DNA from: Gemmatimonadota bacterium
Lineage (GTDB): Bacteria > Gemmatimonadota > Gemmatimonadetes > Gemmatimonadales > Gemmatimonadaceae
NCBI GenBank assembly: GCA_016194585.1
Contig: JACQBG010000021.1
Coordinates: 1 to 58,884 of the forward strand
Direction: 5' to 3'
Length of the DNA stretch: 58,884 bases
In this document: one piece after another, positions 13,146 through 19,994 of the stretch
How the letters are laid out: each line of letters begins with the position of its first letter
Numbering within the stretch: position 1 is the stretch's first letter
Notes under the pieces: model-generated
Told to the model about the DNA's origin: nothing
Databases searched by the model: none
The model's input: only the letters and a program-made list of their open reading frames with translations
Program-made: the position numbers and the translations under genes

Positions 13146-13202
13146 GGGGGGATCAGATCTGATCAACTACGATCAGTACTGATCCCCTCAGAAATTCGCC
13201 GG
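13146..13202. repeat. GATC-rich dyad repeat, copy 1
   Basis: 57-base element built from two GATCAG-nn-CTGATC palindromes separated by 6 bases, flanked by GGGGG on the left and CCCTC-A-GAAATTCGCCGG on the right. It aligns without gaps to 25702-25758, with 48 of 57 positions identical. Five GATC sites fall within about 34 bases. The left part supplies the stop codon and the right part the last codons of the GxxExxY gene on the minus strand. Confidence 0.75.
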
Positions 13203-13600
13203 CGCCGTACTTCGGCGCGCGGACCGAAGTTCAGCAGAAGACCGACCGGGCGACCGCTCGCGCGCAGGTAGTTCACCAGTTGGGCGTGGTGCACCGGCGC
13301 GAGTCGCTCCACCGACTTGACCTCGACGATCACCGCACCGTCGACCAGGAGGTCGGCCCGATATTGTCCGATGTCGACCCCGTGGTAACTGAATTCGAAC
13401 GGTACTTCCTGACTGACGCGCAGACGCAGCTCCTGAAGCCGCACCGCGAGCGCCCGCCGGTACACGGCCTCGAGGAACCCGTACCCGAGCTCGTTGTACA
13501 CGTCGTAGAACGCGCCGATGATGGTGCGCGTGAGCGGCGCGTACGGAAAAGCGGGCGCCGGTGAGGCGCCCGCTTCTGGTCCGATCCCGTCAGTGATCAT
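13163..13600 (-). CDS. GxxExxY family protein (PD-(D/E)XK nuclease-like fold)
   Basis: 145 residues, normal for the family. The naming motif is visible as GYGFLEAVYRRAL (G-x2-E-x2-Y), followed by a possible nuclease-like core: QYRADLLVDGAVIVEVKSVE, which has the D...E-x-K spacing of PD-(D/E)XK enzymes, and HHAQLVNYLRASGRPVGLLLNFG. The function of this widespread family is not established to my knowledge. The last dozen codons and the stop lie within a dispersed repeat (13146-13202), so the natural C-terminus may have been altered. The gene stands alone, 98 bases from the upstream edge of the AAA+ gene and 54 bases from the DoxX gene stop. Confidence 0.88.
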   Translation of the reverse strand: MITDGIGPEAGASPAPAFPYAPLTRTIIGAFYDVYNELGYGFLEAVYRRALAVRLQELRLRVSQEVPFEFSYHGVDIGQYRADLLVDGAVIVEVKSVERLAPVHHAQLVNYLRASGRPVGLLLNFGPRAEVRRRRISEGISTDRS

Positions 13601-13654: not shown

Positions 13655-14080
13655 TCATCCCGCGGCCGCGCCGCCCTTGGCCCGCCAGCGGTCGAACGAC
13701 ACGCCGCCCGCGCCGAGGAGGAAGAGCGTCAGGCTCGCTCCGAGCAGCACCAACTCGAACTCGTAGCCGTACGGCGTGAAGAACCCGCCCTTCCAGCGCG
13801 CCACCGGGATCGCGACGCACATCTCGATCGCCAGCAGCAGCCCCGCCCAGCGGGTGAACGCGCCGAGCAGCACCGACACCGCCCCAGCCAGTTCGACGAC
13901 GATGAGGATCGCCGCGAACATCGTCGGCAGGAAGAACCCGAGCTTCTGCAGCATGTCGGACACGCCGGAGAGCCCGAAGTCGAACAGCTTCTGCCAGCCG
14001 TGCATGAAGAAGACGGCTCCCACGACGAGCCGCAACGGCACCATCCCCCACTCCCTGGCCCAGCCTTTTTCGTCGAGCAT
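13655..14080 (-). CDS. DoxX family membrane protein
   Basis: 141 residues with four hydrophobic helices; contains the family pattern VVGAVFFMHGWQKLFDFG near the start and the later helix GAFTRWAGLLLAIEMCVAI. A good GAGGG Shine-Dalgarno lies 7 bases before ATG 14080. DoxX proteins are small quinone-linked membrane proteins; the founding DoxD/DoxA proteins belong to thiosulfate:quinone oxidoreductase, others associate with oxidative stress complexes. It is the last gene of the operon with two cytochrome-porins and a cytochrome c, which hints at passing electrons to or from the quinone pool. That role is inference; many DoxX proteins have no known partner. Confidence 0.88.
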   Translation of the reverse strand: MLDEKGWAREWGMVPLRLVVGAVFFMHGWQKLFDFGLSGVSDMLQKLGFFLPTMFAAILIVVELAGAVSVLLGAFTRWAGLLLAIEMCVAIPVARWKGGFFTPYGYEFELVLLGASLTLFLLGAGGVSFDRWRAKGGAAAG

Positions 14081-14100
14081 GTGAGATCCCTCGGTTGTCG

Positions 14101-15501
14101 TCAGAAGGCGAACCAGACGTAGGTGTAGAGCGTGTTGTTGTCGGCGGCGTTGCGGCCGCCGAAACGCAGGTCGTAGCTCGTCGACGAGCCGTTGAACTTG
14201 TCGTAGCGCACGTACTGCAGGCCAAGCCGCGTGTTGATCCACGGATTGTACGAGAACTCGATGAGCTGCCCCGCCGTGTTCGGGCTCCCCGTGCTGCTGC
14301 CGGTGACGGCGTTCGGCGCGTACATGACGGCGTCGCTCGTGCCCGACGTGGCGAAGTACATCGCGCTCAGTCCGTACAGCGGCGTCGGCGCGTAGAACGC
14401 GCTCGCCCGCAGGGAGCGCAGCGTATTCGACGTGTTCGCCGCGGCCGGCGGCTGGAGGAGCAGCGCTCCCGCCAGCGACTGATGCTCGACCGTGTACGAG
14501 GCCCGGGCGACCCACGCGCCGGCGTCGCCGGCACTCTCGAGTTGGGCGTCCACCCCCACGTCGGAGTACGTGCTGTAGGCGCCCATGGCGCCGCGTGGCG
14601 AGAGGTCCGCCGAGAGTCCGTACGTCCCCACCATCGCCGTCACGGGGCCGTTCCGGTTCTGCAGGGCGATGCGCCAGTACGGTGCGATGCCGTGCGTGAG
14701 GTTCGTCTCCGTGGAGTCGACGACCGATCGCGGCCCCTGTGGGGCCGAGGTATACCCGCTCACCTCGGCGTACAGCACGTTGTCGTACAGCGCGTACGCG
14801 CCGACGCCCACCACCGCCTGCGCCAATCCGCCCTCGAGCAGCGTCGACGCGGCCGGTCGCGGCGCGAGCGCCGCCGACGTGAACGGATAGCCCCAGGCCG
14901 GGAGCGTGTTCCACACGTCCTGCACCGTCGGATTGTTGTGGAGCGTCAACCCGTAGATCACGTCGCGGTCGGCCAGCTTCGTGTGCGCCGTGAAGCGCAC
15001 GTCGGTGTTGTCGATCGCGAGCTTGCCGGTCACGTCGGAATAGGTGAGCTGCGTGAGCGCACCGACGTTCGGCGTGATCGACCCGCCGAAGAACAAGCTG
15101 AGTTGCTGCGGGAACTCCGAACGCGTCGCGGCCGTCCCGGGCAGCGCCTTGGCGACGCTCGTCGCCGAGACGATCGCCATCGCCGAGAGCCCGGGGATGG
15201 GCGCCAGCGAGAGCGTCTGCCGCGTCGCGCTGTCGAGCATGTCGGTGATCTGCGGCAGCCCCGTGAGGGTGTAGCCGTTCAGCTTGAAGAGCCGCCCGAA
15301 GCGCGTGAGCTGCGGGAAGCCGCCGAGGTGGCACACGTTGCACGACAGTTTCATCTGTCGCGCGAAGGTCGGCGTCCGCGCCATCGCGGCGACGGTGGCG
15401 AAGGCACGCGCCGAGGCCGCGTCGACCGGCGGCGGAGCGGCCGCGGTCGGCACGGCGCGCGTGAGCGACATCGTGGTCGCCAGCACGAGTGCGACGTTCA
15501 T
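14101..15501 (-). CDS. Monoheme cytochrome-porin fusion, Cyc2-like (copy B)
   Basis: 466 residues. A signal peptide precedes a single heme c site C54-x2-C57-H58 inside ARQMKLSCNVCHLGGFPQL followed by TRFGRLFKLNGYT. The order (basic RQ, CxxCH, FP-L, FGR-FK-NGYT) is the signature I know from Cyc2, the outer membrane cytochrome-porin for Fe(II) oxidation in Acidithiobacillus and neutrophilic iron oxidisers. The remaining 400 residues alternate polar and hydrophobic with many aromatic girdles and end in YVWFAF, a typical terminal strand for BamA-inserted barrels. It is a paralogue of the gene at 15900-17300 with the same length and heme position. ATG 15501 overlaps the cytochrome c stop (ATGA) and has GGGAG upstream. 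Family assignment is by motif only. Confidence 0.75.
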   Translation of the reverse strand: MNVALVLATTMSLTRAVPTAAAPPPVDAASARAFATVAAMARTPTFARQMKLSCNVCHLGGFPQLTRFGRLFKLNGYTLTGLPQITDMLDSATRQTLSLAPIPGLSAMAIVSATSVAKALPGTAATRSEFPQQLSLFFGGSITPNVGALTQLTYSDVTGKLAIDNTDVRFTAHTKLADRDVIYGLTLHNNPTVQDVWNTLPAWGYPFTSAALAPRPAASTLLEGGLAQAVVGVGAYALYDNVLYAEVSGYTSAPQGPRSVVDSTETNLTHGIAPYWRIALQNRNGPVTAMVGTYGLSADLSPRGAMGAYSTYSDVGVDAQLESAGDAGAWVARASYTVEHQSLAGALLLQPPAAANTSNTLRSLRASAFYAPTPLYGLSAMYFATSGTSDAVMYAPNAVTGSSTGSPNTAGQLIEFSYNPWINTRLGLQYVRYDKFNGSSTSYDLRFGGRNAADNNTLYTYVWFAF

Positions 15502-15896
15502 GGTTTTGCTCTCCCGTGTCCCACCGACCAGATGTAGGACGCCACATTGACCGCGTCGGCCTTGGAGATGCCGCCGGGGAACGCCACCATCACGGTCGAC
15601 GGAACGCCGTGCGTGATGACGCCGAAGATCGCCTTGAGGTCGCCGTTCTTGGCATCCTTCCACGCGTGGGCCTTCAGCGTCGGGGCCACCTGCGTCCCCT
15701 CGAGCTGCATGCCATGGCAAGCGAAACAGGTGCCCTTGCCGTGGAAGATCGCCCGGCCGGCGTCGATCATCGCGGGGGTGATCTTCGCGCTGTCAGGCTC
15801 CGTGGCCCCCTGCGCGGCGGCCGATGATGCCGCCGCGCAGAGAGCCAGGATCACGACTGCCAGCGCGGAGAGGCTGCGCTTGATTGAGGCGTGCAC
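15498..15896 (-). CDS. Periplasmic monoheme cytochrome c (cytochrome CBB3 type)
   Basis: 132 residues starting at GTG 15896. It has a clear signal peptide (KRSLSALAVVILALCAAASSAAAQ), heme attachment C57-x2-C60-H61 in GKGTCFACHGMQLEG, and a candidate Met axial ligand in GVPSTVMVAFPGG. The size and motif order fit class I cytochromes of the CBB3 Pfam family. It lies between the two cytochrome-porin genes, 3 bases after the first and overlapping the second by ATGA, so it is the natural soluble electron carrier from the outer membrane protein to an inner membrane acceptor, comparable to Cyc1 next to Cyc2 in Acidithiobacillus. The carrier role is inference from this arrangement. Confidence 0.88.
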   Translation of the reverse strand: MHASIKRSLSALAVVILALCAAASSAAAQGATEPDSAKITPAMIDAGRAIFHGKGTCFACHGMQLEGTQVAPTLKAHAWKDAKNGDLKAIFGVITHGVPSTVMVAFPGGISKADAVNVASYIWSVGHGRAKP

Positions 15897-15899
15897 GGA

Positions 15900-17300
15900 T
15901 CAGAACGCGAGCCAGAGGTACAGGTACAGGGTGTTGTTGTCGCTCGCCTTCCGTCCCCCGGTCGCGACGTCGTAGCTCGTCGTGCCGCCGTTGAACTTCT
16001 GGTACGCGACGTACTGCGCGCCGAACCGCACGTTCATCCACGCGTTGGCGTTCGCGTCGAGGATGAACCCCGAACTGTTCGGGCTGCCGGTCGCGCTCCC
16101 TGTCGTCGCTCCTTCGGCGTACAGGACGTTGTCCGACGACCCGTTCACGCCGAAGTAGCCCACCGTCAGCGTATGCGTGTTGCTCGGTACCCACGAGATG
16201 TTCGCCTTGTACGTCGAGAGCGTGTTCGTCAGGTTCTGCGCCGTCACCGGCGAGGCCGCGGCCGACGCGGTCAGCGTCTGGTCTTCATGGATGTAGGTCG
16301 CGCGGCCGATCAGCGTCCCCTCGCCGACCTTGTGCTCGATCTGCGCGTCGACGCCGACGTCCGTGTGCTTGTTCCACGCGCCGTTGATCCCCGTCGGATA
16401 GACGTTGGCCGCCATGCCGAATGCGCCGACCATCAGGTACGTCGACTCGAACTGGTGCTGCAGCGCGACGCGCCAGTACGGCATCACGCCCTTGGGCGTG
16501 TCGGTGGCCGACGAGTCGAGCGGGAGCGCCACACCCTGCTTCGCCGGAACGTACCCCGAGAGCTCGGCGTAGAGCGTGCCATCGAACATCGCGTACGCGC
16601 CGAGCCCGAGCACCTGCTGGCTGAACGCACCTTCGATCTTCGTCGACGCCATCGGCATCGGCGCGATCGCCGACGCCATGAACGGGACGTTCCACGCCGG
16701 CACCGTGTTCCACACGTCCTGCACGCTCGGGTTGTTGTTGAGCGTCATGCCGTAGATCACGTCGTGCGAGGCCCAGTTGCCGTGCCCGGCGTAGCGCAGG
16801 TCGGTGTTGTCGATGCCGAACGTACCGCTCCGGTCGCTGTACGTGACCTGGCTGAAGATGCCCATGCGCGGCGAGATCGCCGCGGCGCCGAACAGGCTGA
16901 GCTGTTGAGGGAACTCGGCCGTGACGCTCTGCGTGCCAGGCACCGCCGTGGCGACCGACGTGGCGCCGATCACCGCCATCATCGAGAGCGGCGCGATCGG
17001 CGAGAGCTGCAGCTCCTTGCGCGACGCGCTGTCCTTCTGGGCGATGATCGACTCGAGGCCGGTCATCGTGTAGCCGTTCAGCTTGAACAGGCGGCCGAAC
17101 GAGTTGAGTTGCGGAAAGCCGGTGTGGCACGCCGAGCAGGCGAGGCGCGTCTGGCGCGAGAAGCTGGGCACGCGCGCGCGCGCGACCATGGCGGCGAGCG
17201 CTTCGCCGGTGACGCGACCCGACGCCGACACCGGGGCGGCGGTCGGGGCGTTCGGACTCGCGCCGGCGAGGGTCGCGGCGAGAAGCAGATTGACAAACAT
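15900..17300 (-). CDS. Monoheme cytochrome-porin fusion, Cyc2-like (copy A)
   Basis: 466 residues with signal peptide MFVNLLLAATLAGASPNAP and one heme c site, C55-x2-C58-H59, within PSFSRQTRLACSACHTGFPQ followed by LNSFGRLFKLNGYTMTG. This matches the Cyc2 cytochrome signature even better than copy B (the RQT is retained). The remaining sequence looks like a 16-strand-type barrel, with repeated short beta segments such as HDVIYGMTLNNNPSVQDVWN shared with copy B, and ends in YLWLAF. It is first in the operon; CCGGAG lies about 11 bases before ATG 17300 and a 240-base leader with possible RNA structure lies further upstream. Likely function is moving electrons across the outer membrane; the donor, for example Fe(II), is not shown by sequence. 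Confidence 0.78.
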   Translation of the reverse strand: MFVNLLLAATLAGASPNAPTAAPVSASGRVTGEALAAMVARARVPSFSRQTRLACSACHTGFPQLNSFGRLFKLNGYTMTGLESIIAQKDSASRKELQLSPIAPLSMMAVIGATSVATAVPGTQSVTAEFPQQLSLFGAAAISPRMGIFSQVTYSDRSGTFGIDNTDLRYAGHGNWASHDVIYGMTLNNNPSVQDVWNTVPAWNVPFMASAIAPMPMASTKIEGAFSQQVLGLGAYAMFDGTLYAELSGYVPAKQGVALPLDSSATDTPKGVMPYWRVALQHQFESTYLMVGAFGMAANVYPTGINGAWNKHTDVGVDAQIEHKVGEGTLIGRATYIHEDQTLTASAAASPVTAQNLTNTLSTYKANISWVPSNTHTLTVGYFGVNGSSDNVLYAEGATTGSATGSPNSSGFILDANANAWMNVRFGAQYVAYQKFNGGTTSYDVATGGRKASDNNTLYLYLWLAF

Positions 17301-17540: not shown

Positions 17541-19652
17541 CTAGGCCCGGGCGCCCCCCGCCACCGCCACTTCGACCAGATTGTCGTAGAACACCGGCCC
17601 GTGTCCGAGGTCCGTCTCGAGCTGCGACGTGGTCGCGTTCGCGTTCGCGCCGTCCCCCGTGAGCTTGAGCCACCACACCGACGGCGCCCACACCACCGTC
17701 GGCCGCACCGCGTCCGTCACCCGCGCCACCCCGTGGAACTCCCCACGGTCGTTCCGCACCACGAGCGTGGCGCCGTCGACGATGCCTCGCGGCGCCGCGT
17801 CGTGCGGATGCACCATCACCTCCGGCTTCGCGTCGCGCCGCAGCGAATCGACGTTCACGAACGTCGAGTTCAGGAACTGGTGGCGCGGCGACGAGATGAG
17901 CGTCAGCGGGTACTTCGCCGCCAGCGCCGGCACGTTCTCGGGGAACTCGTGCGGCGGCGTGAACGCCGGCAGCGGGTCGAGCCCCATCCGCACCATCCGC
18001 TCCGAATAGAACTCGCACTTCCCGCTCGGCGTGAGGAACCCACCGTCGGCGAAGGGGAGGAACGGGCGCGGCACGTTGAGCCGCACCCAGCCGTGCTCCA
18101 TGAGCGCGTCGAACGTGACCCCCTTCATCCGGTCGGCCGTCGTGTCGAGCGCCTGCCGGATGAGCGTGACGTCGTCGTCGCGGAAGCACGCGTCGTCGAG
18201 CCCCATCCGCTGCGCGAGCAGACGGAAGATCTCCGCGTTCGACTTCGCCTCGCCGAGCGGCGCGATCGCCGGCCGGTTGAGCGTCGCGTGGAGATGGCCG
18301 TACGCGAAGTGCACGTCCCAGTGCTCGAGCTGCGTCGTCGCCGGCAGCACCCAGTCGGCGTGATCGGCGGTGTCGGTCAGGAAGTGCTCGAGCACCACCG
18401 TGAACAGGTCGTCGCGCAAGAGGCCGCGCCGCACGTCGTTCGTGTCGGGGGCGACCGCCGCGGGGTTCGAGTTGTAGACGACGAGCGCCTTCACCGGCGG
18501 CCCGCCGACGCCGGCGTCGGGGAGCGTGAGCGCATGCCCGAGCCGGATCATGTTGATCGTGCGCACCGGCGGCGAGAGGTCGGGGCGCTGCAGCGCCTGC
18601 TTGTTGAACTGGAACGCCGCGCTCGTCGAGAGCTGCACGCCGCCACCGGCGCGGCGCCAGTGTCCCACCACCGCGGGGAGGCACGCGATGGTGCGCACCG
18701 CCATCCCGCCGCCGCCGTGCCGCTGCAATCCATAGTTGATGCGGATGAACGCCGCCTTCGCCGCGCCGTAGCGCCGCGCCAGCGAGACGATCGTGTCCTC
18801 CGACACGCCGGTGATCGCCGAGACGAGCGACGGCGGATATTCCGCGGCGCGCGCGCGCAGCTGGTCGGCGCCCAGCGTGTGACGCGCGATGTAATCGTCG
18901 TCCTGCAACCCCTCGGCGAAGAGCACGTGCATCATGCCGAGCGCGAGGGCCGCGTCGGTCCCCGGGCGGATGCCGATCCACTCGTCGCACTGCTCCGCGG
19001 TGCGCGTGCGCAGTGGGTCGATGGCGATGACCGTCGCGCCGTGGTCGCGTGCCTGGCGCACGAACGGCCAAAGATGCGGGTTCGACGTGAGCGTGTTCGT
19101 GCCCCACAGCAGCACGAGGTCGCTCTCCGGCACGCCCTCGGCGTCGGCGCCGATGTTCGCGCCGACCGTCATCTGCATCCCGACCGCGCCCGCCGTCGCG
19201 CAGATCGTGCGGTCGAGCTTCGAGGCGCCGATGCGATGGAAGAACCGCCGGTCCATCGACTCGCCCTGCACGTAGCCCATCGTTCCCGCGTACGAGTACG
19301 GGAGGATGCTCTGCGGGCCGTCGCTCGACGCGCGGATCGCGTTCAGCCGCTCGGCGATCGCGTCGAGCGCCTCGTCCCACGTCGCGCGCTCGAACGTGCC
19401 GCTCCCCTTGGGGCCGACGCGGCGCAACGGCGTCGTGAGCCGGTCACGATGATACGTGCGCTCGAGGTAGCGGTTCACTTTCGCGCAGAGGAATCCCTGC
19501 GTGAACGGATGGTCGGGATCGCCCTGGATGCGTGTGGCGCGGCCGCGTTCGACGGTGACGAGCGTCGCGCAGGTGTCTGGGCAGTCGTGCGGACAGGCAC
19601 CGCGTACGACGTGCGGCGCGTCATCGTTCGAAATAACCGGCATGACGGACAT
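17541..19652 (-). CDS. Molybdopterin oxidoreductase (DMSO reductase superfamily, YoaE-like)
   Basis: 703 residues. The N-terminus binds a [4Fe-4S] cluster through C20-x3-C24-x3-C28-x27-C56, seen in ACPHDCPDTC and QGFLCAKVNR. Then follow molybdopterin-binding motifs such as SDLVLLWGTNTLTSNPHL and VIAIDPLRTRTAEQCDEWI, and the C-terminal cofactor-binding domain beginning LISSPRHQFLNSTF. There is no Tat signal, so the enzyme acts in the cytoplasm. The layout resembles the uncharacterised molybdopterin oxidoreductases related to Bacillus YoaE/YyaE rather than periplasmic DMSO or nitrate reductases; substrate unknown. It lies upstream of the cytochrome-porin operon in the same direction but 240 bases apart, so a common pathway is only possible. 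A second ATG at 19643 is an alternative start. Confidence 0.88.
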   Translation of the reverse strand: MSVMPVISNDDAPHVVRGACPHDCPDTCATLVTVERGRATRIQGDPDHPFTQGFLCAKVNRYLERTYHRDRLTTPLRRVGPKGSGTFERATWDEALDAIAERLNAIRASSDGPQSILPYSYAGTMGYVQGESMDRRFFHRIGASKLDRTICATAGAVGMQMTVGANIGADAEGVPESDLVLLWGTNTLTSNPHLWPFVRQARDHGATVIAIDPLRTRTAEQCDEWIGIRPGTDAALALGMMHVLFAEGLQDDDYIARHTLGADQLRARAAEYPPSLVSAITGVSEDTIVSLARRYGAAKAAFIRINYGLQRHGGGGMAVRTIACLPAVVGHWRRAGGGVQLSTSAAFQFNKQALQRPDLSPPVRTINMIRLGHALTLPDAGVGGPPVKALVVYNSNPAAVAPDTNDVRRGLLRDDLFTVVLEHFLTDTADHADWVLPATTQLEHWDVHFAYGHLHATLNRPAIAPLGEAKSNAEIFRLLAQRMGLDDACFRDDDVTLIRQALDTTADRMKGVTFDALMEHGWVRLNVPRPFLPFADGGFLTPSGKCEFYSERMVRMGLDPLPAFTPPHEFPENVPALAAKYPLTLISSPRHQFLNSTFVNVDSLRRDAKPEVMVHPHDAAPRGIVDGATLVVRNDRGEFHGVARVTDAVRPTVVWAPSVWWLKLTGDGANANATTSQLETDLGHGPVFYDNLVEVAVAGGARA

Positions 19653-19994
19653 CTCGCGCTCGGCTCCAGGGTGAGTGCCGCTCCGGAATCTAACAGCGGC
19701 GCGGCCGGGAATCGCTCCCGCCATTCGTAAGACTTTACGAGCCAATGAGTTATTTGGAGATCTCGACTGGTATTTCGTCCCGCGCGACCGTCGGCGCGCG
19801 TTTGGCTCCGGGGGCTCGCGTGCGCCACCCGCCTCGACAACCACGCGAACATCTTGTGCCCCTTGCACTTGACCGCTGTATCGCTCTTGACCACCCGTTG
19901 GGAAACCCGTATATTTGGGCGCTGTCCGAGGACTGCGTATAAGGCGCAGTCTCGACTGTGCCTACTAGCCAGATCCCCGTTTAGGAGACCCACC
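19653..19994. other. Non-coding divergent region between molybdoenzyme and lipoprotein genes
   Basis: 342 bases without a credible gene; the short open frames here lack coding character. It contains a small inverted repeat TCGTAA-gact-TTACGA (19725-19740), which could be an operator or promoter element for the molybdoenzyme gene, and the lipoprotein promoter at 19887-19915 with a 5' untranslated region of about 70 bases. Confidence 0.5.
19887..19915 (+). promoter_or_regulatory. Strong sigma70-type promoter of the small lipoprotein
   Basis: TTGACC at 19887-19892 and TATATT at 19910-19915 are exactly 17 bases apart, the best -35/-10 pair in the window. Transcription would begin near 19922. Confidence 0.65.

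Follow-up and report, generated by a model that had tools for sequence, protein, structure and literature searches.

A four-gene module encoding two Cyc2-like cytochrome-porins, a small cytochrome c and a DoxX-family membrane protein occupies positions 13655-17300 of contig JACQBG010000021.1 (assembly GCA_016194585.1), whose 58,884 nucleotides we analyzed as a whole and refer to as the window. The host is a Gemmatimonadaceae bacterium, and the window is one contig of its 3.3-Mb genome, which is 98% complete. We propose that the module is probably an outer-membrane electron-uptake unit of the Cyc2 kind, similar to an Fe(II) oxidase and served by a dedicated, exchangeable periplasmic carrier. 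Four observations ground this proposal: a conserved heme motif, a porin-like structural model, homology to Cyc2, and conserved linkage to one redox carrier. All four genes lie on the minus strand and, as read from open reading frame translation, follow the order porin A, cytochrome c, porin B, DoxX:

15900..17300, minus strand: Cyc2-like cytochrome-porin A, 466 residues, first gene (translation, Cyc2 homology, porin fold)
17124..17138, minus strand: heme c attachment motif CSACH of A, inside RVPSFSRQTRLACSACHTGFPQL, residues 55-59
15498..15896, minus strand: monoheme periplasmic cytochrome c, 132 residues, GTG start, between A and B (PF13442, PF00034)
15714..15728, minus strand: heme c motif CFACH of the small cytochrome, residues 57-61
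14101..15501, minus strand: Cyc2-like cytochrome-porin B, 466 residues, start within an ATGA overlap
15328..15342, minus strand: heme c attachment motif CNVCH of B, inside RTPTFARQMKLSCNVCHLGGFPQL, residues 54-58
13655..14080, minus strand: DoxX-family membrane protein, 141 residues, last gene of the module (PF07681, 2.3e-19)

These translations bear out the gene content given in a preliminary description of this DNA, namely two adjacent paralogues of 466 residues with one CxxCH each at residues 54-59, a small cytochrome c gene between them, and DoxX after porin B. The same description held that all junctions are 3 bases or ATGA overlaps, which is correct for the first two (a 3-bp gap between A and the cytochrome, an ATGA overlap between the cytochrome and B) but not for B and DoxX, which are separated by 20 bp. 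A and B share 51% identity over 435 residues, and their equal length is a coincidence arising from small indels. The small cytochrome scores over the Pfam cut-off (PF13442, 5.5e-09; PF00034, 4e-07) and has an export signal as judged by eye, while the DoxX gene is the sole DoxX above the Pfam cut-off in the entire genome.

Neither A nor B is matched by any Pfam or NCBIfam model, and comparison with PDB sequences returned nothing credible; the case for homology therefore rests on profiles and structure. Cyc2 loci were gathered by scanning genomes with an alignment whose lead sequence was a distant Cyc2-motif protein from genome G029, of the same family. This returned 80 named loci, including Gallionella, Sideroxydans, Candidatus Ferrigenium straubiae and Candidatus Ferrigenium altingense, and we label them Cluster 1 following the taxa in PMC7029218 and PMC8406198. 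Using A as the tblastn query, alignments to the Cluster-1 loci spanned residues 44-255 at best and mostly 44-160, with expectation values (E) down to 2e-15. A profile of 26 sequences (A, B and relatives) was then compared by hhalign with a profile of 30 Cyc2 proteins (Gallionella, Sideroxydans, Ferrigenium and others), giving 99.9% probability and an E of 3e-31 over 369 columns (39-457), nearly full length. By this match the heme domain and the barrel are both homologous to Cluster-1 Cyc2, and the Cyc2 resemblance initially recognized in A and B extends over almost the entire protein. Both proteins also show the length above 365 residues and the single N-terminal CxxCH that the Cyc2 criterion asks for, with a signal sequence judged by eye, and both carry PXL behind the CXXCH (CHTGFPQL in A and CHLGGFPQL, one residue longer, in B). 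A viral-contig scan found no relative.

Structure prediction, proposed earlier as a check for a 16-strand barrel, gave the expected picture. The AlphaFold2 model of A comprises a short helical N-domain, which holds the CxxCH, followed by 16 strands, and its structural matches are porins (OprB, Z 19.5; OprP, 2o4v, Z 18.9; OprO, 4rjw, Z 18.3; and also OmpC, Z ~18-19). The same two porins, OprP and OprO, were reported as structural homologues of Mariprofundus Cyc2 (PMC8406198), and a control model of the Ca. Ferrigenium straubiae Cyc2, with a predicted local distance difference test score (pLDDT) of 79, matched the same porins and gave the same picture. Given its 51% full-length identity to A, B would share the 16-strand porin fold. 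Profile comparison and model thus yielded neither an unrelated porin family nor a fold lacking a barrel, two outcomes that would have refuted the preliminary reading. Since the porin fold is general and activity in this clade rests on prediction, one might suppose that A and B are uptake porins of the ordinary sort, plugged by a heme-binding domain whose role is structural or sensory, and that the neighboring carriers are coincidental. We consider this most improbable, because the CxxCH is invariant across the 26-sequence alignment and lies within the best conserved part of the protein, and because porin genes throughout the family are accompanied by a single redox carrier, whose type has been exchanged at least twice on the tree.

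The carrier evidence comes from a neighborhood survey of 56 loci plus the window, of which 36 loci plus the window belong to the host family and 20 loci to two other families of the order; all carrier counts refer to related genomes, not independent events. Among the 37 family loci, the porin stands beside a cytochrome c similar to that of the window in 21, beside a plastocyanin-type cupredoxin in 12, and beside both in none, and the remaining four, with neither carrier, are all cut by a contig end. The cupredoxins matched PF00127 in all four cases tested and showed a C-x2-H-x4-M copper loop in all seven sequences inspected. Mapped onto the tree, three carrier changes are needed, two of them clade-wide. 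The third, in genome G196, where the cupredoxin lies upstream of the porin, is doubtful because only 0.3 kb of sequence follows the porin before the contig ends, and the locus may hold a cytochrome too; the two clade-wide cupredoxin exchanges are independent of G196. Genome G130 has one locus of each carrier type. DoxX was found beside the cytochrome-type porin in four genera and beside the cupredoxin type never. Such exchange would be expected if the carrier acts as a shuttle, and the path from Cyc2 to rusticyanin or Cyc1 in Acidithiobacillus (PMC10654088) is a parallel. At the 80 Cluster-1 Cyc2 loci, cytochrome, cupredoxin and DoxX partners of these kinds were all absent (E 1e-4), and this absence of the same partner families from canonical loci likewise argues against the idea that the heme is merely structural and the carriers incidental.

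The two-porin arrangement itself is conserved in related genomes, as a gene-neighborhood survey suggested in the preliminary description now reveals. The A-cytochrome-B array also occurs in G002, G010, G012, G013 and G017, and thus in 6 of the 18 sampled genomes of the window's genus; all genus members with the protein have the pair, and DoxX follows the array in every genus case where the contig continues. The rest of the family has one porin copy per genome, with the exception of G130, which has two on separate contigs. In the tree, one 13-row clade (Shimodaira-Hasegawa-like approximate likelihood ratio test support 99) contains the A copies and the B copies as separate, parallel groups, with the single-copy relative G151 attaching to the A group at 87. 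This pattern indicates a single duplication early in the history of the genus, after which both copies were retained. The ratio of nonsynonymous to synonymous substitution rates is ~0.16-0.37 for both A and B, indicating purifying selection, and every copy with a sequenced N-terminus carries the heme motif. Because the array recurs with diverged sequence and with purifying selection on both copies, we take it to be more than a chance arrangement.

Several observations weigh against an electron-uptake unit of the Cyc2 kind. The published Cyc2 consensus before the heme site is AXPXFAR[Q/K][T/Y] (PMC8406198), and A (RVPSFSRQT) and B (RTPTFARQM) each match five of its seven fixed positions, so that Cyc2 identity is favored by homology, PXL and CxxCH and opposed by the strict motif, which neither copy matches. 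The signal peptides of both porins are without the usual basic n-region residues. Confidence in the AlphaFold2 model of A is low (mean pLDDT 57; predicted template modeling score 0.62), and our sequence comparison is confined to Cluster 1, although Cyc2 proteins of Clusters 2 and 3 are among those tested biochemically. In the other two families of the order, a cytochrome was found at only 5 of 20 loci. The module is also patchy (6 of 18 in the genus), which argues against a core energy pathway; its G+C content is 68%, compared with 71.5% for the window, and low G+C together with patchiness fits gain by transfer or repeated loss.

In the mechanism we envisage, A and B would be exported, each would carry one heme c attached near its N-terminus, and each would form a 16-strand barrel in the outer membrane, its heme domain lying at the pore or inside it. 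A reductant from outside the cell, if small enough to reach the pore, would then donate one electron to this heme. Analogy makes dissolved Fe(II) the most likely donor, because all three biochemically tested Cyc2 proteins oxidize iron, although the same study warns that distant Cyc2 homologues may do other things (PMC8406198). It is rather unlikely, in our estimation, that the same architecture serves another donor, such as Cu(I), Mn(II), or an organic or sulfur reductant, perhaps for metal detoxification in place of energy. Some porin partners are copper proteins, the clade is separate from Cluster 1, and Cyc2 has been proposed to act on Mn(II) in Manganitrophaceae (PMC9040806). Moreover, one clade relative from the same order (L051, 187-8416; G038:C217) lies between RND-type (resistance-nodulation-division) efflux genes and a gene whose product starts with a copper-ATPase-like YTCPMHP motif, as judged by eye and BLAST; however, this metal-efflux context appears at one locus only, and the tested Cyc2 proteins, as noted, all act on iron.

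From an Fe(II)-fed porin, the small cytochrome c would take the electron in the periplasm, with a terminal oxidase or the quinone side as the next acceptor, and linkage suggests DoxX as an inner-membrane partner of the cytochrome carrier, offering a route to the quinone pool. A and B are paralogues that have long been retained; they probably have different potentials or substrates and would be served by the same carrier. Electrons could in principle also run the other way, with the cytochrome sending them outward and the porins discharging them to minerals, oxygen species or shuttles, since monoheme conduits are reversible in principle and CxxCH-dense stretches elsewhere in the genome (e.g. 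contigs 10 and 13) suggest multiheme cytochromes. We judge such export improbable: the Cyc2 relatives tested so far act as oxidases, and a single heme enclosed in so small a porin is a poor fit for solid substrates, as argued in PMC8406198. For inward transfer, the genome encodes three heme-copper oxidases. A RuBisCO search of the genome found no gene, and electrons taken up would therefore probably supplement heterotrophy or detoxify metal, not support Calvin-cycle autotrophy.

Elsewhere in the same genome, on contig 8 (L052, 3058-10751), a distant Cyc2-motif porin of 389 residues, AIPAWARRYNVNCSFCH, lies 1.5 kb upstream of genes for a Rieske protein, a cytochrome b-cytochrome c fusion, a cytochrome c, a tetraheme cytochrome, a 4Fe-4S protein and NrfD, and this respiratory complex cluster may possibly have a porin of its own. 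In G010, genes for a cytochrome c, a large NrfD protein (611 residues) and a 4Fe-4S protein stand directly upstream of the array (L037, 9528-12421). In that genome they might connect the module with the quinone pool; they are not conserved, being seen in neither the window nor G002, and were not counted as part of the module. A molybdopterin oxidoreductase gene (17541-19868), ~240 bp upstream of A, was likewise set aside as a partner because the genes upstream of A differ in G002 and G010. On the other side of the module, a GxxExxY-type PDDEXK_3 protein (13163-13600) is encoded between DoxX and the next gene, w10; in G017 the PDDEXK_3 gene is absent at that spot and the w10 homologue comes directly after DoxX. 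The window also carries an FTR1-family iron permease (PF03239; 51371-52450), 34 kb from the module. An Rfam scan of the window found no RNA, although the 240-bp leader of A seemed structured by eye, and a search for a sigma-70-type promoter found none.

In a phylum-wide sample, the protein was found in 49 of 395 genomes, and full-length proteins of the same type are plasmid- or megaplasmid-encoded in Caballeronia, Paraburkholderia, Ideonella, Methylocystis, Polymorphobacter and Acidiphilium, as well as in one Acidithiobacillus ferrooxidans strain. All six proteobacterial plasmid regions that we opened have a c-type cytochrome gene nearby, usually adjacent and in Paraburkholderia two genes away. 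The shorter screening form of the Cyc2 motif is failed by 52 of 63 clade members, most commonly through serine in place of alanine (FSRQT), and six members meet the full motif. The full motif is met by 78 of 88 Cluster-1 copies, a figure biased upward because that set was fetched with a related pattern. Judged by these motifs, the clade straddles the Cyc2 definition, and we therefore file it as a Cyc2-like sister clade and not as strict Cyc2. Published trees that used the motif screen may have left out most of it.

Cyc2 serves as a marker of microbial iron oxidation, mostly in dedicated iron oxidizers. If the proposed function is true, outer-membrane electron uptake extends to the unsuspected Gemmatimonadaceae, a family common in soil, through a branch that largely escapes the published motif screen. 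More tentatively, and with less confidence than we place in the function of the module, the clade could be an overlooked cytochrome-porin branch for modular electron uptake in organisms not known to be iron oxidizers, with exchangeable cytochrome or blue-copper carriers and, in one genus, a unit of two porins in which the paralogues are adapted to different donors or sit in a joint complex with the carrier and DoxX. The swap of cytochrome for cupredoxin beside the same porin offers a ready test of carrier choice by Cyc2-type porins and addresses the question of which carrier most Cyc2 talk to, and the retained A/B pair offers a test of what extra cyc2 copies are for.

Comparison with known systems places the module near, yet apart from, each of them. 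Cluster 1 Cyc2 (Mariprofundus PV-1, Gallionellaceae, Ferrigenium) has the same N-terminal monoheme domain RQT-xxx-CxxCH-PxL, the FGRxFKxxGYT motif and the 16-strand barrel, but identity is ~20-25%, most clade members have FSRQT instead of FARQT, the neighboring genes are different, and the barrel motifs differ (LNNNPTVQDVWNTxPAW, NYDGxGRNAxDNNTLY). Leptospirillum offers another cytochrome-porin, Cyt572, that hands electrons to a small periplasmic cytochrome, Cyt579; unlike Cyt579, the window cytochrome scores 26 bits against the NCBIfam cytochrome579 model, far below the 280-bit cut-off. The rus operon of Acidithiobacillus ferrooxidans (cyc2-cyc1-cup-coxBACD-rus; PMC10654088) similarly encodes an outer-membrane cytochrome-porin with periplasmic cytochrome c and copper-protein carriers. 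It unites one porin, the cytochrome, the copper proteins and the oxidase in one operon, whereas the window module has two porins, one carrier, DoxX and no linked oxidase, and its relatives use either a cytochrome or a cupredoxin. Tandem divergent cyc2 paralogues are known from Sideroxydans lithotrophicus ES-1, in which three adjacent copies (Slit_0263-0265) with 37-50% identity are differently regulated (PMC8788666), but those genes are parted by 437 and 604 bp of intergenic DNA. Eight of the 80 canonical loci hold two cyc2 copies, and the seven pairs that are close together have no CxxCH reading frame of at least 60 residues between the copies. Two tandem pairs, in a Sideroxydans sp. and a Proteobacteria metagenome-assembled genome (L147 and L151), are 92% and 94% identical with a 640-bp spacer and are apparently recent duplications; the other tandem pairs are 38-55% identical. 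Among the papers searched, none joins Cyc2 with DoxX, and the subject is absent from the titles and abstract openings of the gemmatimonad papers listed. The impression that a double cyc2 around one carrier with DoxX was unfamiliar is right in that the canonical pairs checked have no cytochrome between them; tandem cyc2 as such was known. Collectively, tandem cyc2 genes and the association of cyc2 with cyc1 and copper proteins in Acidithiobacillus were already known, and what is new is the flanking of a single carrier gene by two porin genes, the recurrent association with DoxX, and the either-or use of carriers.

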